In this document: positions 2,813 to 47,383 of the stretch, in pieces | Position numbering within the stretch: the stretch's first letter is position 1 | How the letters are laid out: each line of letters starts with the position of its first letter | Origin: Neocallimastix lanati (nom. inval.) | Taxonomy: Eukaryota; Neocallimastigomycota; Neocallimastigomycetes; Neocallimastigales; Neocallimastigaceae | Length of the DNA stretch: 64,000 bases | Assembly: GCA_016946835.1 (NCBI GenBank) | Contig: JACVTC010000018.1 | Coordinates: 334,501 to 398,500, forward strand | Direction of reading: 5' to 3' | Translations under genes and position numbers: made by a program | Notes under the pieces: generated by a model | Database searches by the model: none | What the model saw: only the letters and a program-made list of their open reading frames with translations | Told to the model about the DNA's origin: nothing

Positions 2813-3179
2813 TATCTATTCTTTTAATTTTTTATGATTTTAATTATTTATCCAACTAATTATTACTATTTACTTATTTTTTAATATTTAATTTATGGTT
2901 TATATTAATTTATTCTTATAATTTCTATACTAAATTATTAATTAATGATTTTTGATCTGATTTACTAATATTATCTACTTATATTTTAATATTTAATTTA
3001 TTTACTATATATTAATTTATTTTTTTAATTTCTAGATTATTCTATATAATTTATATTATTTTATTTATTATTAATCATAAAAATTTTTATTGTACTACAC
3101 TAAATTATTTTGTACTACTTGATTCTAGAAATTAATTATATTATTAAATTAATTAACTATTCTATTAAACTATACTAAG

Positions 3180-3191
3180 AAGAGTTATTAT
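3180..3191 (-). promoter_or_regulatory. Candidate self-priming primer-binding site
   Basis: The 12 nt directly downstream of the LTR on the minus strand read ATAATAACTCTT. They are perfectly complementary to AAGAGTTATTAT, the minus-strand sequence at 3468-3479, which begins about 35 nt after the start of the LTR TATA box and so may lie at the 5' end of the transcript. Tf1/sushi elements prime reverse transcription with the cleaved 5' end of their own mRNA. No tRNA-complementary TGG-type site is visible. Confidence 0.45.
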
Positions 3192-4171
3192 TGTAATAAT
3201 TTAATTAAAAAATTATAATTAAATTATTAATCATTAATATTAGCTCTAACTGCTAATATTAAAGGTTTAGAAAAGAATCATACTTACCTATGGTTCTTTC
3301 TAATTATCGAGTTTATTATAACGGATTATAATAGACGAAACACTAAAATTGATAAGGAAAAGTTTTAATTATAAAATTTGTTTTATTAAAATAATTTGTT
3401 TTATTATTTATTAAAAATTTTAAATGTTAAAACTTATTGTTATTATTATTATATTATAATTGTTATAATAATAACTCTTGATTTCTCAAAGAGAACTCAA
3501 GAGCCTTATTTATACTTTTTTGTCAAAATAAGGTTAAAATCAAAAGAGGTTCTAATCTTAACAAATCTCTTATCTAGGAAAAGACTAGAAGAAAAACCTA
3601 GATAAGTTTTTTGATCGATATTCTATCCATATCGATCATCGCGTTAATTAAGTAAAACCGATTACTTTTAAGAAGTAATTGGAAAAACCTTAATTAACCG
3701 ATTACTTAATCTAATATAATGATCGAAAATAAAAGAATAAAATAATGAAAATTATTTCGATCATAAAATTTAAAATTTAATCTATTTAGTTCTATTTTAT
3801 AGAACTTTACATAAAAAATATAAAACAATACATTAATAATAAAATACATGATTAATACAATACAGAATACATGATAAAATACAGAATAGTGTTTTAGTTT
3901 ATGATTTAATGAGTGAGAGAAAACTAAAACTAATAAATTTAATAATTAAGTGAATAATTAAATAAATTTAATATTATTTTAAATGTATAAAAATTATTTA
4001 ATTAAATAAATTTTTAATATTAAACTAAATAAAATTTTAATATATAATTAAATAAATTATTAATTATAATTAATTGTATAAATGAAATATGAGTTAAATA
4101 AAAGTTATATTAATTATAACTTAACTAAGAAAATATAATTATTTTGTTAAAAATAATTATAGATTCTTACA
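3192..4171 (-). repeat. LTR-A, copy 1 (probable 5' LTR of the left retroelement)
   Basis: A 980-bp TG..CA block nearly identical to the solo LTR at 14676-15673 and its inverted copy at 36400-37397. On the minus strand TATAAATA (3507-3514) precedes a hairpin at the presumed start of R. Further hairpins lie on the U3 side. It has the same orientation as the gag-pol frame at 1-1962. Its outer edge coincides with the end of the left palindrome arm. The matching 3' LTR would be outside the window, so the target duplication cannot be checked here. Confidence 0.8.
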
Positions 4172-4689
4172 TTTTTGAAATATTTTTCAGTCATTTTTTT
4201 GTTTATTTTTGTATGTGTGGCGAATTGTTGAGATAACTGAATTCCGACTAGTTCAGTTATATATCAATTAAAACTATTTAACTAATTACTATTATTTAAA
4301 TAATTATGAATCAATCTAGGCTAAATTAATTCAAATAATTATATTAAACAAAGTTTTAGTTAATAATAAATAATTTTATATCATTTATTTAAAAATATAT
4401 TAATATTAAATCAATCAATATATTACAATATATTGAATTCATGTAAAGAATTAAATTTAAATTTAATTAAATTTAACCCTTTTCTACAATTAATACTAAT
4501 AATTAATATTAATCGAGGAATAAAACAAAAATAAAAGAAAATACTTAACACACAAAATAGAGAGAGGAGTTTATTATAAGAGATTTAATTATGCCAATAT
4601 TTCATAAAATTTTTATTTTTATTAAAATATTTTTTATTAAAAATAATTTTTATTAAGATTTTTGTTATTTTTAAAAAATTAAAATTTTA

Positions 4690-4915
4690 TTTTGTTTATT
4701 ATTATAATTATATTCTTATAATAATAACTCTTGATTTTCAAAATAAAGAAAATCAAGAATTATTTATAGTAAAGTTCCAAATCTTAATGAATAACTTTTT
4801 AGGAAAAGATTTGGGAGAAAAACCTAAAAAGTTTAATGATCAATTATTAATAAAATTGATCATATGTTAATTGAATAAAAACCGATATTTTCCAATCGGA
4901 AAACTTCAATTAAAA
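4690..4915 (-). repeat. Diverged LTR remnant (LTR-B) with conserved hairpin set
   Basis: Shares the layout of LTR-A but little primary sequence. It has a hairpin at 4730-4757 (CTTGATTTTC/GAAAATCAAG) and a minus-strand TATAAATA at 4761-4768. A hairpin at 4793-4833 has AGGAAAAGA..AGAAAAACCT around the loop. Hairpins also lie at 4837-4862 (TGATCAATT/AATTGATCA) and 4867-4913 (outer stem with an inner CCGAT/ATCGG stem). Stem bases change in compensating pairs relative to LTR-A. Outer ends cannot be fixed. Inverted copy at 47158-47383. Confidence 0.6.
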
Positions 4916-7165: not shown

Positions 7166-7444
7166 AGAATGTTAAGATTTTTATATATTTTATGTTTTAA
7201 ATTTAAATAAAATAATACGTTTTATTAGAAATATTTACAAAGTCGATATGTCTATATAAGTAATATACTATATAGATATATAATAATAATAAATATATTC
7301 AAATAATTTAGTTCAATAAAAATATAATTAGAAATGACTTCAATAATTAAAATTATAATTAATTAATTTTATTTTTAATAATTTCTCTTTATTTAATAAT
7401 TAAATATCTATAAAATATTACTATTAAGGTAATTTTACAATAGC

Positions 7445-7497
7445 CTTACAAAGAACATAAAAGATAGATTTTTACATCTTTCTTTTATACTTTGTAA
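7445..7497. repeat. Isolated CTTACAAAG palindrome of family R
   Basis: CTTACAAAGAACATAAAAGA..TCTTTTATACTTTGTAA near-perfect inverted repeat, the same as the terminal landmark of family R. Mirror copy at 44576-44628. Confidence 0.6.
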
Positions 7498-7642
7498 ATT
7501 ACATAATAGTATTTAATTATAAGATATTAATAATATAGTAATATAAATATTAATAAAATATTAAGATAAATTTAATTTATAATTATATAATTAATTTGAA
7601 TAATTGAAATAAATATAAATATGTTGTAAATATAATATACAT

Positions 7643-8381
7643 TGATATAAAACAAATATGTGTAGTAATATATTTGTATATTTAATAATAATTATTAAAT
7701 AATAAATTTATATCATTTTGATAATAATTATTTTATTTTATTTTATTTCAATATGTATTATTATAATTATAATAATTATAATACTTTAATTCACATACAC
7801 ATAAAATTTATATAATTCTATATATTAGAATAATAGAATATATTATTAATATATTACCTATTTCTTATAAATAGATTAAATTATTTATATTAGAAATAGA
7901 GGACTCTCTTGTAAAATTTTAGGAATTAGAATTATTATTTTTATTGTACGAATATTATAATTTTATTAATAAATTTTATTAACCAACCATTATTTAAAAA
8001 ACCCACTACTTATAAATTATTGCACATAAAAGTCTCTCATATCAAAATAAAATACACGTGACGTCATATGTGATATTCAGTAATATTCGTACAATTAAAA
8101 TAATAATTCTAATTCCTAAAAATTTACAAGAGAGTTCACTATTTCTAATATAAATAATCTAATCTATTTATAAGAAATAGGTATTATATTAATTATATAT
8201 TCTAATATATAGAACTATATTAATTTTATATGAACTAAAGTATTATAATTATTATAATTATAATAATACATATTGAAATAAAATAAAATAAAATAATTAT
8301 TATCAAAAAGATATAAATTTAATATTTAATAATTAATATTAAATATACAAATATGTTACTACAAATATTTGTTTTATATCA
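7643..8381. mobile_element. Foldback element (about 739 bp, 300-bp terminal inverted repeats)
   Basis: Starts TGATATAAAACAAATATG and ends with its reverse complement. Left inverted repeat 7643-7957 and right 8081-8381 match almost throughout. The middle 7958-8080 carries GCACATAAAAGTCTCTCATATC and a CACGTGACGTCA motif. There is no ORF, so any transposase would be supplied in trans. Further partial copies lie at 11048-11443 and 11846-11926. Inverted copy at 43692-44430. Confidence 0.75.
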
Positions 8382-8471
8382 GAAATGCCATTGCTAAAAA
8401 TTAAAATATATATATTTTTTTATAAAAGAAATTATAAGGTATAATTAATATATATAATAATTTTTAAAATT

Positions 8472-9370
8472 TTATTTTCTTTTGTATCTATAATTCCTAA
8501 TTGTTTGTTTGGTATCAACGCGATTGTTGCTATAATTAATAACCTCCTTTAACGCGATTTCAGGTTTGGGCATCTTTAATTTATTAATATTTATTTTATT
8601 TTTACCATTATTTTAAATAAAAATATGAGTAATTTTAATTTTCTTTTTAATTTTCTCAATTTTTATTTCCTTATCATTATCTACATTTATAATATTACTA
8701 AAATCAACCGGAGAATTATTACTATTAATTTTTCTTTCTTTTATATTAGTAATATTATTAACTGAATAATTTTTTTTATAAATTGCTCATTTTTATTAGC
8801 ATTTGAAATAATTTGTATATTATCTACTTTTGAATTATTTTTATCAATAATATTTATTTCCTTAACCAAACCAGAAGTTATAGATTTATTAATTCTATTG
8901 ATAATGCTATCAACTTTAACAGATTCATTGATATTTATTTCTTCTTATAGAATTGTATTACTATTTATTTTGTTTCTTATATTTTCAGAATTATTAATAA
9001 TATTTTTATTTTTACAATTTGATTTAATATTTTCCTTATTTTTTATTATTACAATACTATTAATCTCTATATTATTATTTTGATTTTTCTTAATATTTGC
9101 ACTACCCTTAATATTATTTTTATTTTTCTTCTTTAGTAATTATAATATTATTGTTTGTTTCGCGTTTGCTATTATTACTATTTACTATTTTATTATTTTC
9201 TTTGAAATTATCCATTTTTAACACGTTTAATTTGTTTTGTCCCTCATTTTTAGTATTATTAATTTTATTACTATCATTGTTATTATTATTATAGATGTTA
9301 TTATTATAGATGTTATTATTATAGATGTTATTATTATTATTATTATTATTATTGTTATTATTATTATTAC

Positions 9371-9404
<34 letters not shown>

Positions 9405-10649
9405 GTTCTTAGCCAAGTTCTGTATATATTATTATTTAAAATGCTATTACTTAAATTATTCTTAAATATACTATCATTAATGTTATCAATATTATTTTTA
9501 TTTTTACTGATGCCATTTCCTTTATAATTACTATTATTGTTACTATTATTAATTATTGAATTATTATTTAATTTTGTTTTAAAATTTTCTGTTTTATTAA
9601 ATTGTACGATATATTATTGTCATTAATATTATCATAATTTCTATTATTAATATTTAAATTATTGTTGTTATTAATATCTATATTATTATTATTATTTTTG
9701 AAATTTCTTTTAGCTTTAATTAGTAATAGATATCTATCATCTTTACTTCGTCTAGTAGCAGTAAAATAGCTTTTTGGAGAATTAATATAGTTAAAAAATT
9801 ATAATCTTGTTTTATTCTAGCCAAGTCAGTACAATTCTTAGTAAGATGACCAGGCTTATCTCAAAAGAAACAAGTTTTAATTTGTATCTGTCCCATTTTA
9901 TTTTCATTATTGTAATTATTTTGGATATTATAATTATTTTTATGAATAGAATTAGAAAGCATATTTATAAAAGTACTCTTTAAGTTCTTAAAATTCATGC
10001 CATTTTTATTCCGTGAATTATTAGTTTTATTAATAAAAGTACCAATTGGTTGTTTAATAGATGAATAATTATTATAATTATATAGACTTCTTTCATTTCT
10101 CCAGTGAGATTCCTGTAATATGTTTTCGTATTTTTCTGCCTTGCTATAAGAATCCTCTAAACAACTATATTCCTCCATAGTAATCCTTATATAAATTTGT
10201 GTTCTTGGAAGAAGAGCATTCACATAATCTATAACTGAAATAGAAGTTTTATCTTCCGTTTCCAATTGGTCATATAAATCTAAGTATTTCGTATTAAAAT
10301 TATGCACTGTCTCTTTTGGCTCAATAATTAAACGTTATAATTTTCTTTATTTGTTGTCCTTTTGGGTTTCTCTCCAATATTTTCTTTTTATGAGATCAGC
10401 ACATTCATCTAATGTAAGAGCTCTATTTTCCTCTGTTCCTTTTTTCATAAGTACCCTTACAATGTAATCTTCAGCAGCAGCAATTATGTAACTAAATTTA
10501 TTTTCATCGGTAGTGATACCTTCCCTATTAAACCAATTATTAATTTTAAATTTCCAAATTTCTGCGGCTTTACAAGATCCACCTATTCTTGGAAGAGTCC
10601 CAGTATCTACCAGATTTCCAGTAAAATTACTATTCCTTATTATTAGCAA
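8472..10649 (-). pseudogene. Broken gag (and gag-pro linker) of a Ty3/Gypsy element
   Basis: The first open segment, 10649-10347, encodes a capsid-like N-terminal half (KAAEIWKFKINNWF, ADLIKRKYWRE). After a frameshift, 10307-9861 continues the capsid (TVHNFNTKYLDLYDQL; the frame already opens a few codons upstream) into a nucleocapsid. The CX2CX4HX4C knuckle is CFF-stop-DKPGHLTKNC: the second Cys codon is TGA at 9861-9863. Beyond it lies an Asn-rich, AAT-expanded tract to about 8472, with a last readable segment MPKPEIALKEVINYS. Identical breaks occur in the right-arm copy. No LTRs can be assigned. A dead retroelement remnant. Confidence 0.8.
9270..9405. repeat. ATT microsatellite
   Basis: ATT/AAT triplets with a few interruptions inside the broken gag region. 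The minus strand reads as poly-Asn. Mirror copy at about 42668-42803. Confidence 0.95.
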
Positions 10650-11047
10650 TTAATTTTAAAAATGATAATACCTATTTATTAAATCTTTTGTATTTTTTTT
10701 TTTTTTAAACATTTATTTATACAATATAATTTTTTTTTTAATAATTATTATTATTATTATTTAATATAATTATAAAATATTCCAAATTTTTATTTATTTT
10801 AAGACAATTTACTTAAAGTATACTTAAATGAATGAAATAATATATATTTTATAACTTTCTCTTCATCTAATATAACTATAAACAATCAAAAAAAAAATTA
10901 TTATATCCTAAATTATTTCCTAAATAATATATTAATCCTAATTGAAGAGTATATATATAAATATGTATGAATTAATAATTAATTAACAAAATTACTAAAC
11001 ACCACCACTTATAAATTACTTTTTACACAGCACATCCCCGATATCTA

Positions 11048-11443
11048 CACCAATTTTTGATATGAGGGACTTTTATGTGCAATAATTTAAAAGCAGTGGG
11101 TTTTAAATAATGGTAGTTTAGTAAATTTTATTAATAAAATTATAATATTCGTACAATTAAAATAATAATTCTAATTCCTAAAAATTTACAAGAGAGTTCA
11201 CTATTTCTAATATAAATAATCTAATCTATTTATAAGAAATAGGTATTATATTAATTATATATTCTAATATATAGAACTATATTAATTTTATATGAACTAA
11301 AGTATTATAATTATTATAATTATAATAATACATATTGAAATAAAATAAAATAAAATAATTATTATCAAAATGATATAAATTTAATATTTAATAATTAATA
11401 TTAAATATACAAATATGTTACTACACATATTTGTTTTATATCA
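11048..11443. mobile_element. Partial foldback element (one inverted repeat plus part of the middle)
   Basis: Begins GATATGAGGGACTTTTATGTGC and then matches the right half of the 7643-8381 element, ending GTTTTATATCA. The left inverted repeat is missing. Mirror copy at 40630-41025. Confidence 0.7.
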
Positions 11444-12412
11444 TCAGGACTTTTATGTACTATATATTTTTAATAGTATAATTATATATTTTATTAATAT
11501 TAATATCTTTTCCTAAAATTATAACCAAATTAACTTCTCTATATTAAATAAAAATATAAGGAATGGTTATATTTAGGATTATTTACATATAAAAATTACA
11601 ATTGAATAATATAAATATATTTAATAATAATGTATAAGAATATAATAGTATTATAAATATTAATGCTATTCCCGATGATAGAGGGGTGGGTGGTATGACG
11701 GTCAGTCCGGATTTTCGTAATCTGTTGGGGACCATGTCTAGTACTTTATATCCCTCTTAGAGGTAGTAGAGCGTCGACGTCAAAATGATAAGGCATGTAA
11801 GGTTCGGTTCCTTAATACCTTCATGTGACCTACCAATGATGTTGATCTAAAACAAATATGTGTAGTAACATATTTGTATATTTAATAATTATTAAATATT
11901 AAATTTATATCTTTTTGATAATAATTTTTATAATATATTATTAATTATTCATTATTATATTATAATTACTATTATAATATATATTAAATTACATATTATT
12001 TTATAATATATTAAATTATATATTTATTTTATAATTATATATTATTATATTAAAATATAATAATATTCTTTAACTTTAATATGATTTAAATAATCTTATT
12101 TTATTTTATATTATATAATATATTATTATGTATTATTTTATATTTATTTTATATTTTACATATTATACACATTTATTATTTAAATATAGATATTGTATTC
12201 TTATATATATATAATTTATATTATATGATTAAAATACATTTCATATTATTAAATTTATAATTTGAAAATGTAATTTCTTAATAATAACCAATTTCTAAAA
12301 AATTAATTTAGAAAAGGGGTTTTTTAGTTTTTAGTAAAAGTAATAATAAATTAAATAAAGATATAACTATATTATTATAATTAAAATATAGCACATAAAA
12401 GTCCAGCATATC
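11444..12412. mobile_element. Possible non-autonomous element with GGACTTTTATGT-type ends enclosing a GC-richer islet
   Basis: The left end reads AGGACTTTTATGTACTATAT (about 11445). The right end at 12391-12412, read on the minus strand, is GATATGCTGGACTTTTATG followed by TGCTATAT, so the ends are inverted relative to each other. The interior has the islet 11668-11848, an 80-bp foldback fragment (11846-11926) and AT-rich filler. No transposase. Boundaries and target duplication are uncertain. Mirror at 39661-40629. Confidence 0.4.
11668..11848. other. GC-richer islet, unknown (possible captured gene fragment or RNA gene)
   Basis: About 180 bp with near 45% GC inside sequence of about 10% GC, sharply bounded by AT-rich repeat on both sides. 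On the plus strand NAIPDDRGVGGMTVSP followed by DFRNLLGTMSST is open for about 32 codons before TAG. On the minus strand a comparable short frame exists (SHEGIKEPNLTC). Neither is recognised. Identical copy at 40225-40405. Confidence 0.5.
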
Positions 12413-13340
12413 AATGTAGAAATCATGTGAGAAAGTCTAAAAAAAAAAAAATAAAAAATAAAAAAAAAATAAAATATTAATATAATAAATAATATCAACT
12501 ATATATATATTTAATTATAATTAAAATAACTACATCTATTTCATTATATTATAATATATAGAAGAATTATGTATTTTTAATATAAAATTTAAAATAAATA
12601 TGAATATTTAAATTATATATAATATTACTCTTAATATATATATTTAGAAGAAATTAACTATTCAATTTAATATATTTAATATTATAATTAATAATATATA
12701 TATGAATATTGAGTAATATATAAATAAGAAATTATTTCAAATATTATTATAGAAAGAAAAGATATAAATTTAATATTTAATAATTATTATTAAATATACA
12801 AATATTTTATATTATTTTATTTTATATTATTTTATTTTATATTATTTTATTTTATATTATTTTATTCTTAAAATGTTTTATTAATAATTATAAAGTTATT
12901 TTATTAAAAGATTCTTATTAATATTATTTTACTATTATATTTTATTTAGTTAATTATAAATATAAACATATATTAAGATTAAATGTATTATTTAATTATA
13001 TTGTTAATTATTATTTTAAAATTAGTATAAAAAGGAATTGAAATTTCAATTACCTATAATCTTTGTATGATTATTAATCCAAAGTAACTTAACTAATTAT
13101 AACAATAATAATAATTCTTAGTATTAATAAAACTTATTAAATATTAAATAAAAAATTCTAATAAAACATAAATTTTTATTATAGAATTTCTTAATTAATT
13201 TATAAAACTTTGTGTGTAATATATTATTTTAATTTTATTTAATTATTATAATTAATAAAAACATCTTGACCTGATCAATATAATTCAAAAAACCTCAAAA
13301 ATTCTACAATAATCTTACCTGCTATTTTCTGGTTACATTA
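12413..13340. other. AT-rich stretch with short tandem repeats
   Basis: Contains a foldback fragment near 12750-12812 and a tandem TTTTATATTATTTTA array at about 12812-12872. Nothing coding is seen before the fragment at 13344. Confidence 0.7.
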
Positions 13341-13343
13341 AGA

Positions 13344-13556
13344 TGTTTGGAAATTCTTTCAGAGCTACTACTTCTACTCCTGATATTCCAATGGCTTAAG
13401 AAGGTGAACAACTTAGACAAGATACTACTAAAATTGCTGCCTATATTATTGATGGTGTACGAACAAACTTGGTTTCCAATAATGATTTTAGCCAATACTA
13501 TGAACGACTGGAAATTGTTCTCAATAAAATCTATTTATTTTAATTTATTTATTTTT
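13344..13556 (+). pseudogene. Small gene fragment, unrecognised, one internal stop
   Basis: Frame from ATG at 13344 reads MFGNSFRATTSTPDIPMA, then TAA at 13398-13400, then EGEQLRQDTTKIAAYIIDG and RTNLVSNNDFSQYYERLE up to about 13545. Composition and codon choice look genuinely coding, unlike the surrounding DNA. A longer open frame in another register at 13347-13586 is a shadow. The product is not recognised; the FG near the start is too little to call a nucleoporin. Mirror copy at 38517-38729 has the same stop. The last 16 bp also survive next to the third tRNA pair (about 48235-48250). Confidence 0.5.
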
Positions 13557-13700
13557 ACTTCTCATTTTATTAAATATAAAAAATAGGATACATATATATA
13601 TATCATAAAAATAAAATTAATATTAAAAATAAAATAAAAGAAGAAGAATTATTAATAAAAGATAAAAAATAATTGAAATTAAAAAATAAGAAAATATTCA

Positions 13701-13772
13701 AGGGGCGTTCCGGATTTGAACCGAAGACCTATTGATCTGCAGTCAATTGCTCTACCGCTGAGCTAACACCCC
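13701..13772 (-). tRNA. tRNA-Cys (GCA), left arm
   Basis: 72-nt cloverleaf: acceptor GGGGTGT pairs with ACGCCCC, D-arm TAGCTCAGCGGTAGAGC, anticodon loop CTGCAGA giving GCA, T-arm GGTTCAAATCC, discriminator T as expected for Cys. No intron. Lies 10 bp downstream of tRNA-Ser on the same strand. Confidence 0.95.
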
Positions 13773-13782
13773 CAGTTAGAAG

Positions 13783-13864
13783 CGTCAGCTGCAGGGTTTG
13801 AACCTGCGCGGGCAGAGCCCACCAGATTTCAAGTCTGACTCCTTAACCACTCGGACAAACTGAC
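13783..13864 (-). tRNA. tRNA-Ser (UGA), left arm
   Basis: 82 nt. Acceptor GTCAGTT pairs with AGCTGAC with one G-U. Anticodon loop CTTGAAA gives UGA, with the long variable arm typical of tRNA-Ser (GGGCTCTGCCCG region) and T-arm GGTTCAAACCC. No intron. First of a Ser-Cys pair present three times in the window. Confidence 0.95.
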
Positions 13865-13899
13865 CACTTCTACAGATTTAATACAGAATGAACAAATAA

Positions 13900-14670
13900 T
13901 ACTAATTGTGCTAGAATAATATAAATTATTCTAACCTTATAGATTATTCTATTCTATATAATTGGAACTTTCCAATATTCTTCAAATATTACTAAATAGA
14001 AATCTTAAGTTAATAAATCACCAATTAACTTATAATTCCTTTTTGAATTATCGATCCGATTCCATTATAATGTATTAAAAATCTTTAGCCAAGAATATTG
14101 TCCTTGCCCACTTAATATATTAATATTATATTTCTTTTGTATTATGTTATATTGAAAATAATCAAATCTATTTAATTGGTTATTAAAATTTTCGTTATCA
14201 ATTTAAATTTATTTTTAATTACTAAATTTAACTAAACCACAATAAAATATTCTGTATAATCTCTTTATTTTTATTTTATATATATTAGTATTAAACTATT
14301 ATTAAATAATTAATAATTCAATAATATATAACTACTATTTATAACAATAATATTATTAACTAAAATAATAATTCAATTTCAATTTAAATGTTTTATTTAT
14401 AAAAATAATTAGTAATTAGTTTATTAAAAAAATAGTTAGGCTTTACAAATTTTAATTTGATAAAAAAATATAAATACATGTAATTTTAGTGAAATAAAAT
14501 ATAATCAATAACTTTCTTTTTATTAAATAAATAATTATATTATTATTTTTTCTTTTATAAATTTAAATAAATAAATATTGATTTTAAAACAAATTATTTT
14601 TTTTATTGTAATTTTATTATTTGTGTTAATTATTATTATATTCCTAAAATTATATGAACCATACCAGATT
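13900..14670. other. AT-rich stretch upstream of the tRNA pair
   Basis: No ORF, tRNA or repeat recognised apart from short A/T runs. Confidence 0.7.
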
Positions 14671-14675
14671 TTGTG

Positions 14676-15673
14676 TGTAATAATTTAATTAAAAAATTAT
14701 AATTAAATTATTAATCATTAATATTAGCTCTAACTGCTAATATTAAAGGTTTAGAAAAGAATCATACTTACCTATGGTTCTTTCTAATTATCGAGTTTAT
14801 TATAACGAATTATAATAGACGAAAAACTAAAATTGATAAGGAAAAGTTTTAATTATAAAATTTGTTTTATTAAAATAATTTGTTTTATTATTTATTAAAA
14901 ATTTTAAATGTTAAAACTTATTGTTATTATTATTATATTATAATTGTTATAATAATAACTCTTGATTTCTCAAAGAGAACTCAAGAGCCTTATTTATACT
15001 TTTTGTCAAAATAAGGTTAAAATCAAAAGGGGTTCTAATCTTAACAAATCTCTTATCTAGGAAAAGACTAGAAGAAAAACCTAGATAAGTTTTTTGATCG
15101 ATATTCTATCCATATCGATCATCGTGTTAATTAAGTAAAACCGATTACTTTTAAGAAGTAATTGGAAAAACCTTAATTAACCGATTACTTAATCTAATAT
15201 AATGATCGAAAATAAAAGAATAAAATAATGAAAATTATTTCGATCATAAAATTTAAAATTTAATCTATTTAGTTCTATTTTATAGAACTTTACATAAAAA
15301 ATATAAAACAATACATTAATAATAAAATACATGATTAATACAATACAGAATACATGATAGAATACAGAATACATGATAAAATACAGAATAGTGTTTTAGT
15401 TTATGATTTAATAAGTGAGAGAAAACTAAAACTAATAAATTTAATAATTAAGTGAATAATTAAATAAATTTAATATTATTTTAAATGTATAAAAATTATT
15501 TGATTAAATAAATTTTTAATATTAAACTAAATAAAATTTTAATATATAATTAAATAAATTATTAATTATAATTAATTGTATAAATGAAATATGAGTTAAA
15601 TAAAAGTTATATTAATTATAACCTAACTAAGAAAATATAATTATTTTGTTAAAAATAATTATAGATTCTTACA
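14676..15673 (-). repeat. Solo LTR-A with 5-bp target duplication
   Basis: 998 bp, TGTAATAATTT..ATTCTTACA, near-identical to 3192-4171. Flanked on both sides by TTGTG (14671-14675 and 15674-15678), so this is a complete solo LTR left by LTR-LTR recombination. Minus-strand TATAAATA at 14991-14998. Hairpins at 14959-14987, 14988-15016, 15052-15089 (CTTATCTAGG/CCTAGATAAG), 15096-15120 (GATCGATAT/ATATCGATC) and 15126-15181. The first lies just downstream of the TATA box, in the position of a TAR-like R hairpin. Confidence 0.9.
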
Positions 15674-15709
15674 TTGTGGAACGTTACGTTCAGAAAAGTA
15701 TGAATTTCT

Positions 15710-15716
<7 letters not shown>

Positions 15717-15757
<41 letters not shown>

Positions 15758-16229
15758 AAATTATTTAAATTTATATTTAATTAGTTTATATGAATAAGTA
15801 AATAAATAATGATATTTATTTAACAAACAATTAAATTATTAAATTAAAGTATATTTTTAATTAAAAGTTAGTATTTTTATTTATGTAAATAATAAACTAA
15901 ATAGTTAAATAATTTTAAATTACTAATATTTCTAAATAATATGTATTTAAAATAAATATTTTTAATTATTTTTAATATGTATTTAAAATAAATATTTTTA
16001 ATTATTTTTAATATGTATTTAAAATAAATATTTTTAATTATTTTTAATATGTATTTAAAATAAATATTTTTAATTATTTTTAATATGTATTTAAAATAAA
16101 TATTGTTTATTATTTTTAAGGTATATTTAGTTAAAATATATTCAATTTATATTAACAATTAAATTGTATAAAAATTATAAAATAAAAATTAGGAAAATAA
16201 TCAAATAGTATAAAAAAATATTAAATTAA

Positions 16230-16264
<35 letters not shown>
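15717..16264. repeat. Poly-A runs and 36-bp tandem repeat
   Basis: 38 A (15717-15754), about 4.7 copies of a 36-bp unit AATATGTATTTAAAATAAAT.. (about 15938-16110) and 30 A (16235-16264). The first run is 39 nt in the other arm, one of the few arm differences. Confidence 0.9.
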
Positions 16265-16265
<1 letters not shown>

Positions 16266-16387
16266 ATATATAAATAGGAAATTTTACAAAAATAAATTTT
16301 TAGGAAAAAAATAATAATATTAATAAAATAAAATAAAAATAAATAAAATATTATAAAAATAATTAATATAGAGCATTACGTCCCATT

Positions 16388-17483
16388 TGTGATACGGGGT
16401 GTCACTAAATACCTTGTATTTCCTATTAAATACTCTTAATAATAATAAAATAAAATTATTATTAAATATTCTTATTAAAATCTTTTATTAATATCAAATA
16501 TAATAAAAATTATTATTAAATATTCTTATAAATTTCTTTTATTAATATTAAATATAATAAAAATTATTATTAAATATTCTTATAAATTTCCTTTATTAAT
16601 ATTAAATATAATAAAAATTATTAAATATTCTAATAAAAATCTTTTATTAATATTAAATATAATAAAAATTATTATTAAATATTCTTATAAAATTCTTTTA
16701 TTAATATCAAATATAATAAAAATTATTATTAAATATTCTAATAAAAATCTTTTATTAATATCAAATATAATAAAAATTATTATTAAATATTCTTATAAAA
16801 TTCTTTTATTAATATTAAATATAATAAAAATTATTATTAAATATTCTTATTAAAATCTTTTATTAATATCAAATATAATAAAAATTATTATTAAATATTC
16901 TTATTAAAATCTTTTATAATAAAAATTATTATTAAATATTCTTATAAAATTCTTTTATTAATATCAAATATAATAAAAATTATTATTAAATATTCTTATA
17001 AAATTCTTTTATTAATATCAAATATAATAAAAATTATTATTAAATATTCTAATAAAAATCTTTTATTAATATCAAATATAATAAAAATTATTATTAAATA
17101 TTCTAATAAAAATCTTTTATTAATATTAAATATAATAAAAATTATTATTAAATATTCTTATTAAAAATTATATAATATTTAAATCATTATTAATTCTTAT
17201 TTTTATATTAAGAATAATAAAAACCTATTTCAATAAATATTTGATATAAAATACAGAATTATAAGTTTCTGTATAATATTTTCTAAACCTTTGAAATAAA
17301 CTAAAAATAAATCAAAAATCAAAAATAAATTAAATCTTTATTAAAAATAAAAATGAACTAAAATACAGAATTTCAATAATAAAAAAATGATCTAAAATAC
17401 AGAAAATATCAATTCTGTATAATTCTCTCTCTGAAAAACAATATCAAGAAGAAGCTACCGCCCGGAATGCCCTTCGTGATACA
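16388..17483. repeat. LTR-like block D with internal 54-bp minisatellite
   Basis: GC-richer ends TGTGATACGGGGTGTCAC.. and ..GCCCTTCGTGATACA enclose about 13 copies of a 54-bp unit (TTAATATCAAATATAATAAA..) at about 16440-17165 and a TACAGAATTATAAGTTTCTG segment. The TG..CA ends suggest an LTR or non-autonomous element, but flanking 5-mers differ. A shorter copy sits at 30612-31217, ending at the inner edge of the right arm. Mirror at 34588-35683. Confidence 0.6.
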
Positions 17484-18120
17484 ATCTCTAAATTAATTTT
17501 TTATATTTTAATTTAATAAATGTTATTTTTTTTTTTAAAAAAATAATTTAAAATAATAGTTAAAAATTAAAATAAAATAGTTATAATAGTTTTTTTTATA
17601 AAGAATATATTAATAATAAATAAAATGTATTAAAATAAAAGTATAAAAAGAAGAATAAATTTCTTTCTTTTTAATACTTGGAACAAATAATTTTAATTTT
17701 AAATTTAAATAAAGAATATTTTAAAATTTAATTTTTTTTTTCTTGTTTCCAAACTTATTTTTATAGTTATGTGTTAATATTTATTTTTTTTTGTTTTGAA
17801 TATCTTAGTGTTTCAACCCCAGCCCGTATCATTTGTAATAAATCTTGGTTATAAATAGATTTTTATTTTATTATTTGATTTTATAATGTTAAAATTAAGA
17901 TATAAAATAGTTTTATCGTTACTAGGTTAATATGTTGAATTATATATTAATAATCCAACAATAATTAATTAATAATAATATAAAAATAATATAAGATAAA
18001 TAGTTAAGTTATTTAAACACTTAATATCTAAGAATATTTTAAATAATAATTTCTTTGAAGGATTTATGAAAATATTTATTTATTGAATTATTAGTATATA
18101 ATTATTGTAAATACAATAAC
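17484..18120. other. AT-rich stretch with one GC-richer patch
   Basis: The patch near 17810-17835 reads on the minus strand AAATGATACGGGCTGGGG, resembling the start of block D, so it may be another LTR fragment. No genes seen. Confidence 0.5.
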
Positions 18121-18572
18121 CTTACAAAGAACATAAAAGATAGATTTTTACATCTTCCTTTTATACTTTGTAAGTTACATAATAATAGTATTTAATTATA
18201 AGATAATAATAATATAGTAAAATGAATATTAATAAACTATTAAAATAATAACAATATCGATATGTTTAAAATATTTAATATAATTAAATAAATTTAATTT
18301 GTATAATTAATTTGAATAATTAAAAATAGTAATTAATATATATGATATAAACATATATATAAACATAATATAAATAAATACATGTGACGTCATATGTAAA
18401 TAATTGAAATTATTAATATAAATCTTATTTATTAATATTTTCAGAATTATTAGGCCTAAGATAATTCTTTAAATATTAAATAAGAATTTATATTAATTAT
18501 TAATTAAATGTATATTGAAATGTGAATAACTGAAATTGAGATTTCAATTCAGTTATAATTTCAACATATAAA
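18121..18572 (+). repeat. Palindrome-rich repeat family R, copy 1
   Basis: Order: CTTACAAAG..CTTTGTAAG palindrome (18121-18174), GTGACGTCA near 18384, ATTATTAGGCCTAAGATAATT palindrome near 18450, and AACTGAAATTGAGATTTCA..CAGTTAT palindrome near 18527. No ORF. An inverted second copy lies at 20042-20483. Mirror at 33499-33950. Confidence 0.65.
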
Positions 18573-20041
18573 AATTGTTTTATATACTTTATAAATATAT
18601 ATAAGTATATAAACCTTTATTAATTTATTGATTCATTTATTATTAAAAATTTATTTTATTCAAAAGAGAGAGATTAAAAATATTTTTTTTAAATTATTAT
18701 TTTTATATTCTAAAATTGGTGTAACAACAATATCCAATCAGTAATAATAATAAAATAATAATTATAATTTTATAATAAAATATTCTTTAGAAATAATAGT
18801 AAAGTATTAAGAATTATTAATAATTTATATATAATACTAATAAAATAATCTATTATTATTTATATCATAAATTTTATAATAAAATTAAAAATATTTTATA
18901 TATATAGATATATATATATATTTTTAATAAATAACGTAATTATAGTTGTTATTTATCATTCGTGATAAAGAATGAAGTAATAAATTGATTCTTATTAAAA
19001 ACCTTTTAATATAGTCAATGTGATTTTTAAAATATTAATAAATTTATGTATTCTTTACATTAATAATTTTACTATATTATTTGATCTGAAAATTTAAGTT
19101 TATACATAAAATTTAATTTAAATTTATGTTCATTCCTTATAAAGGTAAATTAAATTTATGAGAGTTTATCAATAACATAGTACTAATTACTTTTAGTATT
19201 ATTCTTCTAAATAAGGAATAATTCCTGTATATAAACAACTTAAATAACTTTATCAATATTTCTGTCTTTCGAATTAAGAAATAATTGAAATGAAAGAAAT
19301 AAATAAAATAAAATTTTCTGTATTTAAAATTGTAAAAGATTTTTCATATATTAATAAATGTATTTTATTTTCTATTATGTCATTCAAATTAATATATAAG
19401 ATTACATATTAAATTAGTATCAAAATTAAGTTAAAGTATTCAATTTTATTGTAATACGGCTTCTTTTTTTTTGTTTAATTCTTATCTATAATGTATCTTT
19501 TATATTATAGATTTATTTTGGTTAATTTGAATATTAGGAAATAATAAAATTTCTATTTATTACAATAAGGAAATAATCAATAAGATTTAAAAATCTATTG
19601 TTTTTCCATCTCTTCAACTACTTCCAGAGGCTTTGCTACTTTTATATCTTCAAAAAGATATAAATTGACTACCTTGGAACCCCTTTTTAGGGGAGAGAAA
19701 AGAAAATAAGAAAATAAAAATAGAAATAAAAAAAATAAATAAATAAAAAAAAATAAATAAAAATAAATAAAAATAATAATAAAAATAAAATAAAAATAAA
19801 ATAAATAAATAAAAATAAAATAAATAAATAAAAATAATAATAAAAATAATAATAAAAATAAAATAAAAATTAAAATAAAAATATAATAAATAAATAAAAA
19901 TTATTGTGAAATAATAAAATTTTTTTTTGTGTTTTAATATTATATAATTTTTTTTTTTTTTTGAATTCCTCGAGCCATAACATTCGTTGTAAGAAACTAT
20001 TAAATAAATTTTATTTTAAAGTTTCTTTTTTATAATGTTGA
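18573..20041. other. AT-rich stretch between inverted family R copies
   Basis: No gene. Includes an A-rich AAAT/AAATA low-complexity tract (about 19690-19920) and a CCCCTTTTTAGGGG mini-palindrome at about 19679-19694. Confidence 0.65.
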
Positions 20042-20483
20042 AATTATAACTGAATTGAAATCTCAATTTCAGTTATTTACATTTCAATAATTAAAAATAT
20101 TATTTATTTAATTATAAATAATATATATATTTAAATAATTAAATAATTAATAATTAATATAAATTCTTGTTTAATATTTAAAGGGTTATCTTAGGCCTAA
20201 TAATTCTGAGAATATTAATAAATAAGGTTTATATTGATAATTAATTTCAATGATACATTTGACCTCACGTGTATTTTATTTATATTATGTTTTTATATAT
20301 GTTTACAACATATCTATATTAAATTCAATTATTCAAATTAATTATATAATTAAATTTATCCTTATATTTTATTATTATTTATATTACTATATTATTACTA
20401 TCTTATAATTAAATATTATTATTATGTAACTTACAAAGTATAAAAGAAAGATATGAAAATCTATCTTTTATGTTCTTTGTAAG
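20042..20483 (-). repeat. Palindrome-rich repeat family R, copy 2
   Basis: The same landmarks as 18121-18572 in reverse order, ending with the CTTACAAAG palindrome at 20430-20483. Mirror at 31589-32030. Confidence 0.65.
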
Positions 20484-20854
20484 GTTATTGTAAAATTACC
20501 TTAATAGTAATATATTATAGATATTTTATTATTAATAAAATCAATAAATTTAAAATCAAATTAATTTGATAATTCTAATTATCAAAGTTTATTATAAATA
20601 AATTTTTATTAAACTAAACATTAAATATTTATTATTATTATTATATATCTATATAGTATATTACTATATAGACATATCGACTTAGTGAATATTTTTAATA
20701 AAACATATTATTTTATTTGTATTTAAATTATAAATTATATCAAAATCTTAACATATAATTTAACAATTTAAAATTAAAAAAAATTATTTTTAAAAAATAT
20801 AATTATTTATTTTTTTATTTATTTAATTCAAAGAGTTTATTTAAAAATATATTA

Positions 20855-21900
20855 AAAATTTTTTATTTATTTAAATTCCTTTTATTAATGTATTTTTATT
20901 AATATATTCTATTAATAATAACTCTTGATTTCCTAAAAGGAAATCAATCGTTCTTTTATACATTTTTTTTGATATATTATTTAATGGATATTAATACTAT
21001 TTTAATAATCATTATTTAATTATTTAATTAATTTTTTTATTACTAAAAAAATTATTAATTATTATTTGTTTTATTATAAAATATTTTATTTATTAATATC
21101 TGATCATTTGTTATTAATTTTTAAATTAATTATTAATTGCAATTATCTAATTTGTTCATTATTTATTTTGTTTATATTAAATATATAATGTTAATTTATT
21201 GTTTAATAGATTGTACTAGTCTAATTGGTGATTCATCAGGAAAAGACTAACAGAAAAACCTGATGAAGTAATAATGTGATTTATTGATATTAAATAATAA
21301 TAAAAAACCAAATTATTATTGGAAAAAAAATTATTATTCAATTTTTGAAATTAATAATTGATTAAATTTTTATTATATTTAATTTTAATTAATATAAATA
21401 TTTATTTTATTTTGATAAAATTATTTAGACTATTGGTTCAAGAATGGAAATCTAGAATTATAATTTATAATAAATAATAATTTTAGTTTGATATTTAATT
21501 AAAAGTTTATATGAAATTTTATTTAATATTTAATAATTATACTTATCCGTAATAATAAATATTAATAATATTAATATTTAACTAAGGAATATAAATATTT
21601 TATCTAAATTACTTACATTCGTAAAGAACGAACTGTAAAATAAACTAATAGCTTAGGTCGGTGTGGACAGACTGTTTTATTTTACACAATTTTATTATAT
21701 TAACACTATAATTAATTATTAACTAAAACACTAAAACTAAAAAACTAATTTAATTTTTTGTTTTATAAAAAATTCATTTATTAATATTTTTTATTTATCA
21801 AATTTATCTATGCTATAAATCAACAATCACTTAACTGGGTACCGTAGGGTCCTTTACCGGAATGCCTACTAGCAGTTAAGATTTTTAAAAATAAAATTTT
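20855..21900 (-). repeat. LTR-like region C with conserved hairpins, left edge of the core
   Basis: Single-copy in this window. Contains TTGATTTCCT/AGGAAATCAA (20925-20947) and minus-strand TATAAAAG (20953-20960). The TTCATCAGG/CCTGATGAA hairpin (21232-21267) has a loop almost identical to LTR-A and LTR-B. The CCAA..TTGG hairpin is at 21308-21322. Spacing between the first and third hairpin is expanded by about 200 bp of AT sequence. A GC-richer patch at about 21836-21883 (GGTACCGTAGGGTCC..) is unexplained. Confidence 0.5.
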
Positions 21901-21948
21901 AAAATAAAATTCGTTTTATAAAAAATAACTATTCTAAATTTATTTAAT

Positions 21949-22399
21949 TGGCTATAATTTTTATTACAATCTGTTAAAATATTCAAATAAAAATAAAAAT
22001 ACTATTCTAATATAAAGGTTTTTAATAAAATAAAATATTTGTCAATATAAAATAAAACATTTCGATATAAAATTTTATAATAAAAGTTAAAATATAATAT
22101 ATAAATTTTTAATTATCAATATATAAAAATATTATTAATACAAATTTTCATTATTAATATAAAAATAAAAAAGTAAGATTTATTATTAATATTGCTAATA
22201 TAAGTTTTAAATATATAAAAATATTACTATTAATATAAGATTTAATATAAAAATATAAAGTTTAATATAATATTTGATTTAATTTTTAATCTTTGAATTT
22301 AAAAATTTATTAAAGTACAAAAATAATAATGTACACATAATGTATTAGAAATAAATCGTAGATTTAATTAAGAATGCATTATTTAGTACATTCTTATCA
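21949..22399 (-). repeat. 3' LTR of the core Ty3/Gypsy element
   Basis: 451 bp, TGGCTATAATT..TTCTTATCA, with four mismatches to 29095-29545 (about 99% identity). It starts 18 bp after the integrase stop codon. Similarity extends 12 bp further out (from 21937), so the precise LTR end, or a shared flank, is uncertain. No matching target duplication was found. Confidence 0.85.
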
Positions 22400-22417
22400 A
22401 GATGCCCCGACGAAGAC

Positions 22418-23752
22418 TCAAGCTTCTCTGTAAACGGAGTTAAACTTTACTAAATTTTTAAAGTGAACATTCCTATCGAGTTGCTTTCCAGTTTTCTGAT
22501 CGATTAGGGTTGCCGTGTTGAATTGAATTTTTAAAATTTTAAATGGTCCATTGTAATATGGTTCTAGCTTAGTGCGGCTAAAGTTTCTAACAAGAACAAG
22601 ATCACCAGCCTTTAATTCTTTTCCTTTTTTCATACTTATTTGTTCTTCTCGTCTTGTTGCCCAATACTTGTTAGCATTCTTCACATTTTCGCATGCTTCT
22701 CTAGTCCATTGATAATGACGAACAAATTTTTCCATTAAAATTTCATCATATGATTTACCTGCATTTTCAATTGTTCTTATGGCTAAATCATAAGGCTGTT
22801 GGTCTTCTCTTCCATATACTAATTCAAAACTAGAATGTCCAGTAGCTGTGTTTTTGGTAGTTGGAAGTGCCCATAAAGCAGAAGGTAAAACTTCATCCCA
22901 ATCTTGATTTTTCCTTCCTAATAAACGAAGTAATTTTCCAATTTCTTTGTTTCGATTTTCAGTAAGACCATTTGATTCAGGGTGGTAAGTAGCTACAAAT
23001 TTAACATATACATCATAAAGATCAAGAAAGATTTTAGTCATATCAGAAGTGAATTGGACTCCATTATCAGTAGTAATAACTTGAGGCACACCATGTCTTG
23101 CAAAAACGTTTATTAAAAATTTAATTATATCAGAGGAAGTTATGTTTTCAGTGGGTTCGGCTTCAACCCATTTGGTAAAGTAATCAACAGTTACTATAAT
23201 ATATTGATTATTATTTCTTGTTTTTGGTAACGGTCCTATAATATCTAATCCTAAATGCACAAAGGGACCTTCTACTTTAGTTGGATGGTTTTCGGTTGGT
23301 TCTGGATATGGTTGAGGACGATTTAACTGGCATTTTTCACAATTACTAACAATTCTTTTGATATCTTTAATCATATGATTCCAATAAAAGTCTTTCTTAA
23401 GTCTTTGATATGTTTTGTAATATCCTTCGTGGCCAATATTATGAGCTTCTAAAATTAATTTAAATTTTTCATTTTCATCCGTTATTAATTTTCTATAATT
23501 TCCATTGTCGATAAAGTAATCTTCACCATCAATAATAGTAAACTTTTCATTAATAAATTCCTTTATAACTTTAGATAATAATTCTTCATTATTTCCATTA
23601 GTAATTTTTGTTAATAATATCTTTCTCTCTTCCTTACTTTTCATTCTTGAAAGAACATCAGCTAACACATTCTTTTTGCCAGATTCATATTTTATATTAA
23701 TTCCAAGCATACTAGCGGTTAGACACCATCTTGTTTGCCTTGCATTCAAAGG
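22418..23752 (-). CDS. Integrase part of the core element Pol (after an in-frame stop)
   Basis: Continues in the same frame as the upstream Pol segment after one TAA. The first residues (NARQTRWCLT..KNVLADVLSR) are the end of RNase H/connection. Next come the integrase zinc-binding HHCC (AHNIGHEGYY..CEKCQ), the DDE core (HLGLDIIGPL, VITTDNGVQFT, HPESNGLTENRN) and a C-terminal GPY/F-type module (KAGDLVLV..YYNGPFKILK). The catalytic D, D and E are present. It ends 18 bp from the 3' LTR. No chromodomain is visible. Integrase would insert the element cDNA. Without readthrough of the stop it cannot be made as part of Pol. Confidence 0.9.
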   Translation of the reverse strand, partial: PLNARQTRWCLTASMLGINIKYESGKKNVLADVLSRMKSKEERKILLTKITNGNNEELLSKVIKEFINEKFTIIDGEDYFIDNGNYRKLITDENEKFKLILEAHNIGHEGYYKTYQRLKKDFYWNHMIKDIKRIVSNCEKCQLNRPQPYPEPTENHPTKVEGPFVHLGLDIIGPLPKTRNNNQYIIVTVDYFTKWVEAEPTENITSSDIIKFLINVFARHGVPQVITTDNGVQFTSDMTKIFLDLYDVYVKFVATYHPESNGLTENRNKEIGKLLRLLGRKNQDWDEVLPSALWALPTTKNTATGHSSFELVYGREDQQPYDLAIRTIENAGKSYDEILMEKFVRHYQWTREACENVKNANKYWATRREEQISMKKGKELKAGDLVLVRNFSRTKLEPYYNGPFKILKIQFNTATLIDQKTGKQLDRNVHFKNLVKFNSVYREA

Positions 23753-26427: not shown

Positions 26428-26428
26428 A
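26396..26428 (-). promoter_or_regulatory. Programmed -1 ribosomal frameshift signal (gag/pol)
   Basis: Minus-strand T TTA AAC (26428-26422) lies exactly in the gag reading register, immediately before TTC TAA, the gag stop. An 8-nt spacer follows, then a hairpin GGGAG/CTCCC (26413-26409 with 26400-26396, 8-nt loop). Slipping back one base enters the pol frame, which is open from there. This is the classic X XXY YYZ plus stem layout. Confidence 0.85.
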
Positions 26429-36399: not shown

Positions 36400-37397
36400 T
36401 GTAAGAATCTATAATTATTTTTAACAAAATAATTATATTTTCTTAGTTAGGTTATAATTAATATAACTTTTATTTAACTCATATTTCATTTATACAATTA
36501 ATTATAATTAATAATTTATTTAATTATATATTAAAATTTTATTTAGTTTAATATTAAAAATTTATTTAATCAAATAATTTTTATACATTTAAAATAATAT
36601 TAAATTTATTTAATTATTCACTTAATTATTAAATTTATTAGTTTTAGTTTTCTCTCACTTATTAAATCATAAACTAAAACACTATTCTGTATTTTATCAT
36701 GTATTCTGTATTCTATCATGTATTCTGTATTGTATTAATCATGTATTTTATTATTAATGTATTGTTTTATATTTTTTATGTAAAGTTCTATAAAATAGAA
36801 CTAAATAGATTAAATTTTAAATTTTATGATCGAAATAATTTTCATTATTTTATTCTTTTATTTTCGATCATTATATTAGATTAAGTAATCGGTTAATTAA
36901 GGTTTTTCCAATTACTTCTTAAAAGTAATCGGTTTTACTTAATTAACACGATGATCGATATGGATAGAATATCGATCAAAAAACTTATCTAGGTTTTTCT
37001 TCTAGTCTTTTCCTAGATAAGAGATTTGTTAAGATTAGAACCCCTTTTGATTTTAACCTTATTTTGACAAAAAGTATAAATAAGGCTCTTGAGTTCTCTT
37101 TGAGAAATCAAGAGTTATTATTATAACAATTATAATATAATAATAATAACAATAAGTTTTAACATTTAAAATTTTTAATAAATAATAAAACAAATTATTT
37201 TAATAAAACAAATTTTATAATTAAAACTTTTCCTTATCAATTTTAGTTTTTCGTCTATTATAATTCGTTATAATAAACTCGATAATTAGAAAGAACCATA
37301 GGTAAGTATGATTCTTTTCTAAACCTTTAATATTAGCAGTTAGAGCTAATATTAATGATTAATAATTTAATTATAATTTTTTAATTAAATTATTACA
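36400..37397 (+). repeat. Solo LTR-A, right arm
   Basis: Mirror of 14676-15673, including the 5-bp flanking duplication (CACAA on this strand). TATAAATA now reads on the plus strand at 37075-37082, followed by the R hairpin 37086-37114. Confidence 0.9.
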
Positions 37398-47157: not shown

Positions 47158-47383
47158 TTTTAATTGAAGTTTTCCGATTGGAAAATATCGGTTTTTATTC
47201 AATTAACATATGATCAATTTTATTAATAATTGATCATTAAACTTTTTAGGTTTTTCTCCCAAATCTTTTCCTAAAAAGTTATTCATTAAGATTTGGAACT
47301 TTACTATAAATAATTCTTGATTTTCTTTATTTTGAAAATCAAGAGTTATTATTATAAGAATATAATTATAATAATAAACAAAA
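47158..47383 (+). repeat. LTR-B remnant, right-arm copy
   Basis: Mirror of 4690-4915 with the same hairpins and a TATAAATA box now on the plus strand (about 47305-47312). Confidence 0.6.

Follow-up and report, generated by a model that had tools for sequence, protein, structure and literature searches.

The window analysed here is a stretch of 64,000 nucleotides from contig JACVTC010000018.1 of the anaerobic gut fungus Neocallimastix lanati. The genome contains at least 150 matches to the fungal-dockerin domain CBM_10, and 14 control genomes contain none; such dockerins are typical of Neocallimastigomycota and mark the source as an anaerobic gut fungus. It contains copies of three different long terminal repeats (LTRs), LTR-A, LTR-B and LTR-C, all of Ty3/gypsy elements (Table 1). 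The second copy of LTR-A (A2) is apparently a solo LTR. A 5-bp duplication, ttgtg, flanks it at 14671-14675 and 15674-15678, its sequence is 99.4% identical to the LTR of a full element of family A (L057), and inspection of its flanks revealed no primer-binding site (PBS) or PPT like those of L057. The element to which the first copy (A1) belongs extends toward lower coordinates. LTR lengths are 999 nt in family A (L057), 929 nt in B (L055) and about 840 nt, as aligned, in C.

Coding sequence was located for one element of each family (L009 for A, L055 for B and L056 for C). Reverse transcriptase and integrase frames are found in L009, a single open reading frame (ORF) of 1347 amino acids in L055, and broken frames in L056. 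A Pfam scan of pieces of the ORF, run on B only, identified Ty3_capsid, RVP_2, RVT_1, RNase H, rve and SH3_Tf2-1. In all three families, gag-pol lies on the strand that carries U-rich hairpin loops. The first-pass annotation, made from the letters of the window, had described a set of hairpins with A-rich loops shared by the three LTRs; since gag-pol runs with the U-rich loops, that description applies to the antisense strand of the elements, and the A-rich loops are the complement of U-rich sense loops. The hairpins themselves, named for LTR-A (14959-15181), LTR-B (4728-4913) and region C (20922-21341), are all present in the sequence: one at the R start of each LTR, one with an inner CC..GG stem between A-tracts in each, a GATC hairpin in A and B, and a main hairpin. 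In sense orientation, their order is an ENE-like hairpin, the GATC middle hairpin, the main hairpin with stem S1, the 3' strand of a second helix (S2), a TATA box and a hairpin at the U3/R border. The GATC middle hairpin is seen by eye in most families but not in C.

Table 1. Positions of the LTRs and of their structural parts in the 64,000-nt window.
Feature	Position	Strand	Remarks
LTR-A copy 2 (A2)	14676..15673	-	Apparently solo LTR, 998 bp, TG..CA
A2 ENE-like hairpin	15126..15181	-	9-10 bp lower stem, U5, CC..GG upper stem, U4 A; fold z -4.46, family comparison
A2 GATC middle hairpin	15096..15120	-	Located in sequence, folded
A2 stem S1 (main hairpin)	15052..15089	-	Loop UUUUUC UUCUAGUC UUUU; stem comparison, covariation
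A2 pseudoknot S2 3' strand	15033..15042	-	AAGATTAGAA, partner of S1 loop; pairing search
A2 TATA box	14991..14998	-	Sense TATAAATA; 35 nt ahead of presumed R start
A2 hairpin spanning presumed U3/R border	14959..14987	-	R start AAGAGTTATTAT from about 14963 in sense
LTR-A copy 1 (A1)	3192..4171	-	5' LTR with PBS after it; 97.4% to L057 LTR
A1 ENE-like hairpin	3643..3698	-	Located in sequence
A1 S1 hairpin	3569..3606	-	S2 3' strand within 3549-3559
A1 primer-binding site	3170..3191	-	12 nt complementary to R start (self-priming type); same sequence in L057
LTR-B ENE-like hairpin	4867..4913	-	U4, CC..GG, U5 A; located, folded
LTR-B GATC middle hairpin	4837..4862	-	Located, folded
LTR-B S1 hairpin	4793..4833	-	Located, stem comparison
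LTR-B S2 3' strand	4777..4785	-	AAGATTTGG; pairing search
LTR-B hairpin spanning presumed U3/R border	4728..4759	-	Located in sequence
LTR-C	20839..21572	-	Without last ~130 nt at sense 3' end; 85.5% to positions 1-710 of 843 of L056 C LTR
LTR-C ENE-like hairpin	21290..21341	-	U8, CC..GG, U6 A; located, folded
LTR-C S1 hairpin	21232..21267	-	Located, stem comparison
LTR-C S2 3' strand	21213..21222	-	AGACTAGTAC; pairing search
LTR-C hairpin spanning presumed U3/R border	20922..20949	-	Located in sequence
Mirror of A2 module, other palindrome arm	36892..37114	+	Inverted-repeat comparison
Mirror of B module, other palindrome arm	47160..47345	+	Inverted-repeat comparison

The palindrome to which the mirror copies belong is an inverted repeat of 16.7 kb (4171-20854 versus 31218-47902) with 99.98% identity and a spacer of 10.4 kb, and it stems either from a duplication that was palindromic and recent or from an artefact of assembly. 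The truncation point of LTR-C (20839) is near the inner edge of this repeat. LTR-B is split by about 690 bp at 5003-5695, and the two LTR pieces overlap by ~11 nt, as if through the target-site duplication of an insertion. A tandem pair of tRNA-Ser(TGA) and tRNA-Cys(GCA) genes is present in three copies (13700-13864, 38209-38373 and 47914-48078), two of them in the palindrome arms and the third just outside, 97% alike. Arrays of a ~54-nt tandem repeat occupy 16424-17250 and are mirrored at 34822-35635, and the GC-richer end of the window contains open frames with cysteines on the plus strand (62354-63852) that have no Pfam match.

The main hairpin and its pseudoknot

The loop closed by S1 is 18, 19 and 18 nt long in A, B and C, respectively, and reads AAAAGA..AGAAAAA on the plus strand and UUUUUC...UCUUUU in sense. 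The three LTRs had been said to differ in the stem while keeping this loop at 18-19 nt, which is borne out. Outside the loop-adjacent pairs, the sequences of S1 and of the ENE-like lower stem differ between families. Absent from the first-pass annotation is the pairing of the S1 loop with a downstream strand. This second helix, S2, is 8-11 bp long in 16 of 17 classes of the module and turns the hairpin into an H-type pseudoknot (the knot). In these 16, the S2 3' strand begins 18-20 nt past the point where the S1 3' arm starts. The knot of the one exception, the L080 class, is broken.

These classes derive from a search of the genome (199 Mb, 762 contigs), in which a knot-core pattern has 1306 matches versus 74 for the reversed pattern, and an ENE-core pattern 787 versus 139. 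Another Ty3/gypsy element, in the palindrome spacer (21919-29545, minus strand; RVT_1 and rve; 481-bp LTRs 97.9% identical), gave zero matches in the knot-core scan, so the module is not general among LTR elements here. From the fetched loci and the window, 51 distinct modules were extracted by the rule of six or more S1 pairs, and dropping a false-positive class of two left 49 modules, grouped into the 17 classes by S1 and loop. Without the S1 rule there are 50 distinct matches, five of which have fewer than six S1 pairs; L051, L052, L078 and L079 are apparently decayed members, and L062 is apparently a chance match. MAFFT misaligned the families relative to one another, and the U-tracts together with a GA[CT]T anchor were used to define the registers instead. 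Families H, J, K and L come from a U-loop hairpin scan, whose reversed control, blind to symmetric patterns, was discarded. A pattern for knots with other loops has 23 matches versus 9 reversed, and three of them resemble mutated members. A second U-loop-like repeat, GGTTTTTCAAAAACTTGTTTTCC, occurs in 10 places (e.g., C41:9215-9237), with a one-letter variant at 2. Eleven matches in IMG/VR, considered as possible relatives, were dismissed as chance from their flanks.

Covariation was evaluated against a tree-based null (FastTree, Fitch, 60 simulated alignments). With 23 distinct rows, the six best covarying pairs among 780 column pairs all belong to S1, and two of them are unequalled among 46,800 simulated null pairs (E<0.02). 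Unpaired changes, which the first-pass annotation had regarded as evidence against a conserved structure, do occur: L051, L052, L078 and L079, among the 50 distinct matches, have a broken stem, and L057 has one mismatch. Yet stem covariation remains significant when these four copies, which are outside the 49 modules, are restored (27 rows), as the five best pairs are again in S1 and the same two keep E<0.02. Canonical pairs fill 230 of 243 cells of S1 and 224 of 243 of S2 (pairs 1-9) in this larger set. Both sides change at 6 of the inner 9 positions of S1 and at 4 of the inner 9 of S2. When 3' strands are swapped between classes, a mean of 108.6 canonical S1 cells (pairs 2-9) remains out of an observed 136 of 136, and 0 of 5000 permutations reach the observed value, a figure inflated by the six-pair rule and made liberal by the relatedness of the classes. 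The earlier claim of a selected structure kept by paired changes is upheld. The excess of genome matches over the reversed pattern likewise shows that the hairpin set is more than a chance occurrence.

The G-C pair that borders the loop is U opposite U in 3 of 17 classes, in the register chosen, and tracts of 6 + 5 uridines then replace those of 5 + 4, as though a triple had taken the place of a pair. This position ranks third of 780, with E 0.23 (23 rows) or 0.40 (27 rows). Of the classes listed, the false-positive one included, 15 have knot U-tracts of 5/4, 5 have tracts of 6/5, and 2 have other lengths.

The evidence for S2 comes from matching loop and strand variants, namely CUAAUC/GAUUAG, CUAGUC/GACUAG, CAAAUC/GAUUUG and CAUAAUC/GAUUAUG. 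In each of the 16 classes, shuffled downstream sequence equals the S2 score in at most 5% of 500 trials. Of the 153 S2 cells (pairs 1-9), 146 are canonical, whereas swapping 3' strands leaves a mean of 132.0; 0 of 5000 permutations reach the observed value, in a test that the related classes make liberal. Taken one by one, the S2 pairs fall short of significance against the tree-based null: with 23 rows, those in which both strands vary have E 13-32, and with 27 rows the best S2 pair ranks eighth (E 8).

The upstream hairpin, the acting strand and the transcript

The hairpin located 5' of the knot displays the architecture of an ENE (element for nuclear expression), a triple-helix element that clamps poly(A) in the RNAs of transposons; it consists of a stem, U4-9, CC..GG, U4-6(A) and a stem. 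A strict search upstream of the knot recovered it in 34 of 49 modules versus 0 of 1020 mono-shuffled and 0 of 51 reversed stretches. A laxer search recovered it in 40 of 49, equal to 40 of the 44 outside families F and K and comprising 21 distinct sequences. Their C[CT]..GG closure, present in 21 of 21 by construction, is really tested by the 40 of 44 modules that have it together with the lower stem. Two facing U-tracts of at least four, likewise required by the search, are present in the 21 sequences (U4-U9 on the 5' side, U4-U6 on the 3' side), and a C interrupts or shortens the 5' tract in two, L046 and L076. The lower stem has changed on both sides at 9 of 9 positions, and 184 of its 189 cells are canonical, figures that are in part a product of the search, which demands at least five lower pairs along with the U-tracts and closure; the upper stem varies little, with 83 of 105 canonical. 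The lower-side pair next to the U-tracts is G-C in 11 and A-U in 10 of the 21.

The nine modules in which the laxer search found no ENE comprise five in F and K, three C copies and one L copy, the latter four apparently decayed; L044 and L048 lack a G of the closing pair. Family F (L066, L077, L081 and L053) and family K (L013:2689) have knots without an ENE found upstream, which suggests that the knot can act alone. In double-domain ENEs, a single stem contains both U-rich internal loops; the module instead has its two U-loops in separate hairpins, with a third hairpin between them in A and B. All five sense sequences submitted to RNAfold (A, B, C, H and J) are predicted to take the ENE shape (z -2.8 to -4.8). 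Sense and antisense z values are -4.5 versus -6.3 for A, -2.9 versus -3.1 for B and -2.8 versus +0.3 for C; thus, of three ENEs folded both ways, only C is better in sense, and A and B are better in antisense. Across the window, Rfam 15 gives nothing at the gathering score except tRNAs, and 14900-15260 has no match at E<=1. A known ribozyme or other Rfam family was accordingly rejected; Rfam may not include transposon ENEs, so the result does not settle whether the hairpin is an ENE.

The strand on which the structure acts is addressed by the fifth S2 pair, which in the whole genome is A-U in 832 cases, G.U in 269, G-C in 65 and A.C in 2, with all reversed controls at 0. Under independence, 47.8 A.C would be expected; the Fisher p for this deficit, 5e-35, should not be read as a calibrated probability, as the copies are related. 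Only in antisense RNA could an A.C combination pair, as G.U. The near absence of A.C beside common G.U at this one knot pair therefore favours selection on sense RNA. In the sampled stems, the ratio of G.U to A.C is 1:0 for the inner nine pairs of S1, 7:1 for those of S2, 5:0 for the ENE lower stem and 2:4 for the ENE upper stem, or 15 versus 5 in total. Where the first-pass annotation had left the choice between RNA and extruded DNA, the data thus favour a selected structure that acts as sense-strand RNA, with the ENE upper stem pointing the opposite way. On the strand asymmetry, antisense (A-loop) RNA and DNA cruciforms were rejected as the main reading.

As the first-pass annotation had proposed, the module is placed in U3, upstream of the TATA box and the presumed R start, a position deduced from the TATA and the R-start motif. 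The R-start motif was found in 103 of 107 copies with enough downstream sequence, some of which are from loci that overlap the window and are not all independent. TATAAA precedes it by 34-37 nt in 102 of the 103; the exception is K, where a later TATAAA sits inside the hairpin loop. A module upstream of TATA and R would be present in the RNA only at the 3' end, copied from the 3' LTR. In family C, the knot is about 320 nt before R, at a greater distance from the tail than its counterparts in A and B.

The 5' LTR is immediately followed by ATAATAACTCTT, which is complementary to the R start, with the RNA 5' end taken from the TATA spacing. The complementary stretch has 12 nt, all of them exact in family A (L057) and in B (L055); that of C (L056) includes one G.U, and no exact match in it exceeds 7 nt. 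The string formed by the LTR end plus PBS occurs 145 times in the genome, and its reversed control 0 times. The elements are therefore apparently Tf1-like, self-priming members of Ty3/gypsy. The hairpin at the U3/R border pairs the R start, that is, the self-primer sequence, with sequence upstream of the presumed start, so that only the 3' copy in the RNA can form it. It may mask this second primer copy, leaving the 5' copy free for the PBS.

Interpretation and relation to known systems

The reading that we prefer, at a probability of roughly two in three, is that the module is a sense 3'-UTR device for protecting poly(A), composed of an ENE and a pseudoknotted second U-loop and carried by Tf1-like self-priming Ty3/gypsy elements. 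The first step of the proposed mechanism, folding of the element in sense RNA, is supported by the pairing and strand data above. Being copied into RNA only from the 3' LTR, the module would lie near the poly(A) tail made at the presumed poly(A) site. By analogy with known ENEs, the ENE would then grip the tail through U.A-U triples, shielding it from deadenylases and 3' exonucleases. More tentatively, the second U-loop, GG-U5-C..C-U4-CC, whose facing tracts are likewise bordered by G-C pairs, could bind additional adenosines or make the clamp stronger; S2, whose 3' strand is found some 8-10 nt past S1, may hold this loop open. A tail protected in this way would preserve genomic RNA for packaging and reverse transcription. 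Several observations weigh against this reading: the absence of an Rfam match, the F and K knots with no ENE seen upstream, the A.C majority in the ENE upper stem, the better antisense folds of A and B, the S2 pairs that are not individually significant, the broken knot of L080, the four decayed members left out by the six-pair rule and the greater distance of the knot from R in C.

A bolder proposal, which we regard as speculative and somewhat doubtful, is that the knotted U-loop constitutes a new class of poly(A)-binding RNA, a 'knotted ENE' whose pseudoknot supplies the upper helix of the clamp and which works in tandem with a classical ENE or, in F and K, alone. It further holds that the whole self-priming Tf1-like lineage depends on the module, and that the U3/R hairpin hides the 3' self-primer copy so that only the RNA 5' end primes. 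If the module acts as proposed, RNA-based tail protection would reach the LTRs of highly copied retrotransposons in an early-diverging fungus, and a pseudoknot-closed U-loop would be an added structural type among RNA-only grips on poly(A). The many sequence-divergent families in one genome provide natural compensatory variants, and whether a pseudoknot can clamp poly(A) is a question directly addressable with short RNAs.

Uridine tracts displayed in a defined fold are typical of protein sites, and the knot occurs without a visible ENE in F and K. It is conceivable, although we consider it unlikely, that the knot, or perhaps the whole module, serves as a site for Gag or a host protein in packaging, dimerisation or nuclear export and does not engage poly(A). 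The ENE part fits a known poly(A)-binding architecture, however, and U-tracts of 5/4 or 6/5 in 20 of the 22 listed classes (the false-positive class included) are expected of tracts that face each other across a third strand.

The H-type topology with a U-rich first loop also raises the idea of a self-contained triplex or nuclease roadblock, in which loop 1 would lie in the S2 groove and poly(A) would play no part, as in the telomerase or xrRNA pseudoknots that we take the knot to resemble. The four bottom S2 pairs, UCUU/AAGA with three A-U, are suited to such a triplex in most A classes and in B, D, H, J, K and L. Against this idea, some of the S2 pairs meant for the loop uridines are lost or changed at position 1 in C and F, 2 in F and 5 in C and F, while the loop U-tract stays constant, and we judge it more doubtful than a protein site.

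That the hairpins act as DNA, either as U3 inverted repeats binding transcription factors or as cruciforms, is in our view decidedly improbable. Their location upstream of TATA, in the promoter half of the LTR, is in keeping with such a role, stems that pair in RNA pair in DNA too, and two of the three ENEs fold equally well or better in antisense. Tolerance of sense G.U with almost no A.C (269 versus 2, at one pair) is nevertheless left unexplained by DNA, the knot requires a third strand at a fixed spacing, and S1 and ENE lower-stem sequences that diverge between families beyond the loop-adjacent pairs are unlike a protein site. The last alternative, that no structure is under selection and the LTR families resemble one another through recent shared descent or recombination, could draw on the many near-identical copies and on the other sequence that the families share near R, but it is hardly credible in light of the changes on both sides of the stems between families, the tree-based null and the 2 A.C against about 48 expected.

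Among known systems, the poly(A)-protection reading applies to elements that resemble the Tf1/sushi group, with a Tf2-type SH3 domain past the integrase core and, in B, gag-pol in a single ORF; Tf1 likewise has a single ORF. The PBS complementary to the element's own RNA 5' end is also a feature of Tf1 and Tj1 of fission yeasts, for which an ENE or U-loop pseudoknot is not mentioned in the available portions of the two reports (PMC7175516, PMC4600332). Potexvirus and alphavirus 3'-UTR pseudoknots are comparable in that a 3' knot is tied to poly(A) with base triples, but there the tail itself is a strand of the knot (PMC12846552), whereas the gut-fungus knot is complete without any tail and has the U-tracts on its flanks. 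The 3'-end triple helix of MALAT1 and MENbeta similarly sequesters an A-rich strand in a U-rich internal loop. It differs in that the A-tract is genome-encoded and the 3' end is made by RNases P and Z, which remove a tRNA-like RNA (PMC10855403); in the gut-fungus module, a poly(A) tail is presumed.

The closest relatives are transposon ENEs, which were overlooked in the first-pass remark that no described LTR element matches the hairpins. A case in point is Evade (Copia93) of Arabidopsis, described as having U-tracts in internal loops bounded by G-C pairs, within the 3' UTR of an LTR retrotransposon; its triplex requires both the U-tracts and the G-C pairs beside them, and deletion of the ENE lowers RNA stability and yields fewer new insertions (PMC12501189). 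Evade is of the Ty1/copia type, and its ENE, with four U-rich tracts in one fold-back, lies in the spacer between ORF and LTR (PMC12501189), whereas the gut-fungus module is inside U3, is consequently in both LTRs of the DNA and has a separate pseudoknotted U-loop after the ENE. A literature search that stopped short of the species list of Tycowski et al. (2016) found transposon ENEs but no anaerobic-fungus ENE or knotted U-loop, and as far as checked, a pseudoknotted second U-loop has not been described. Plant and fungal transposon ENEs and double-domain ENEs, as outlined in papers that cite Tycowski et al. (2016), share the architecture of the first hairpin and count fungi among their hosts; unlike in double-domain ENEs, the second U-loop here is in its own hairpin and is closed by a pseudoknot. 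The ENE-type element is therefore a known kind of RNA, and it is the setting that is new here.
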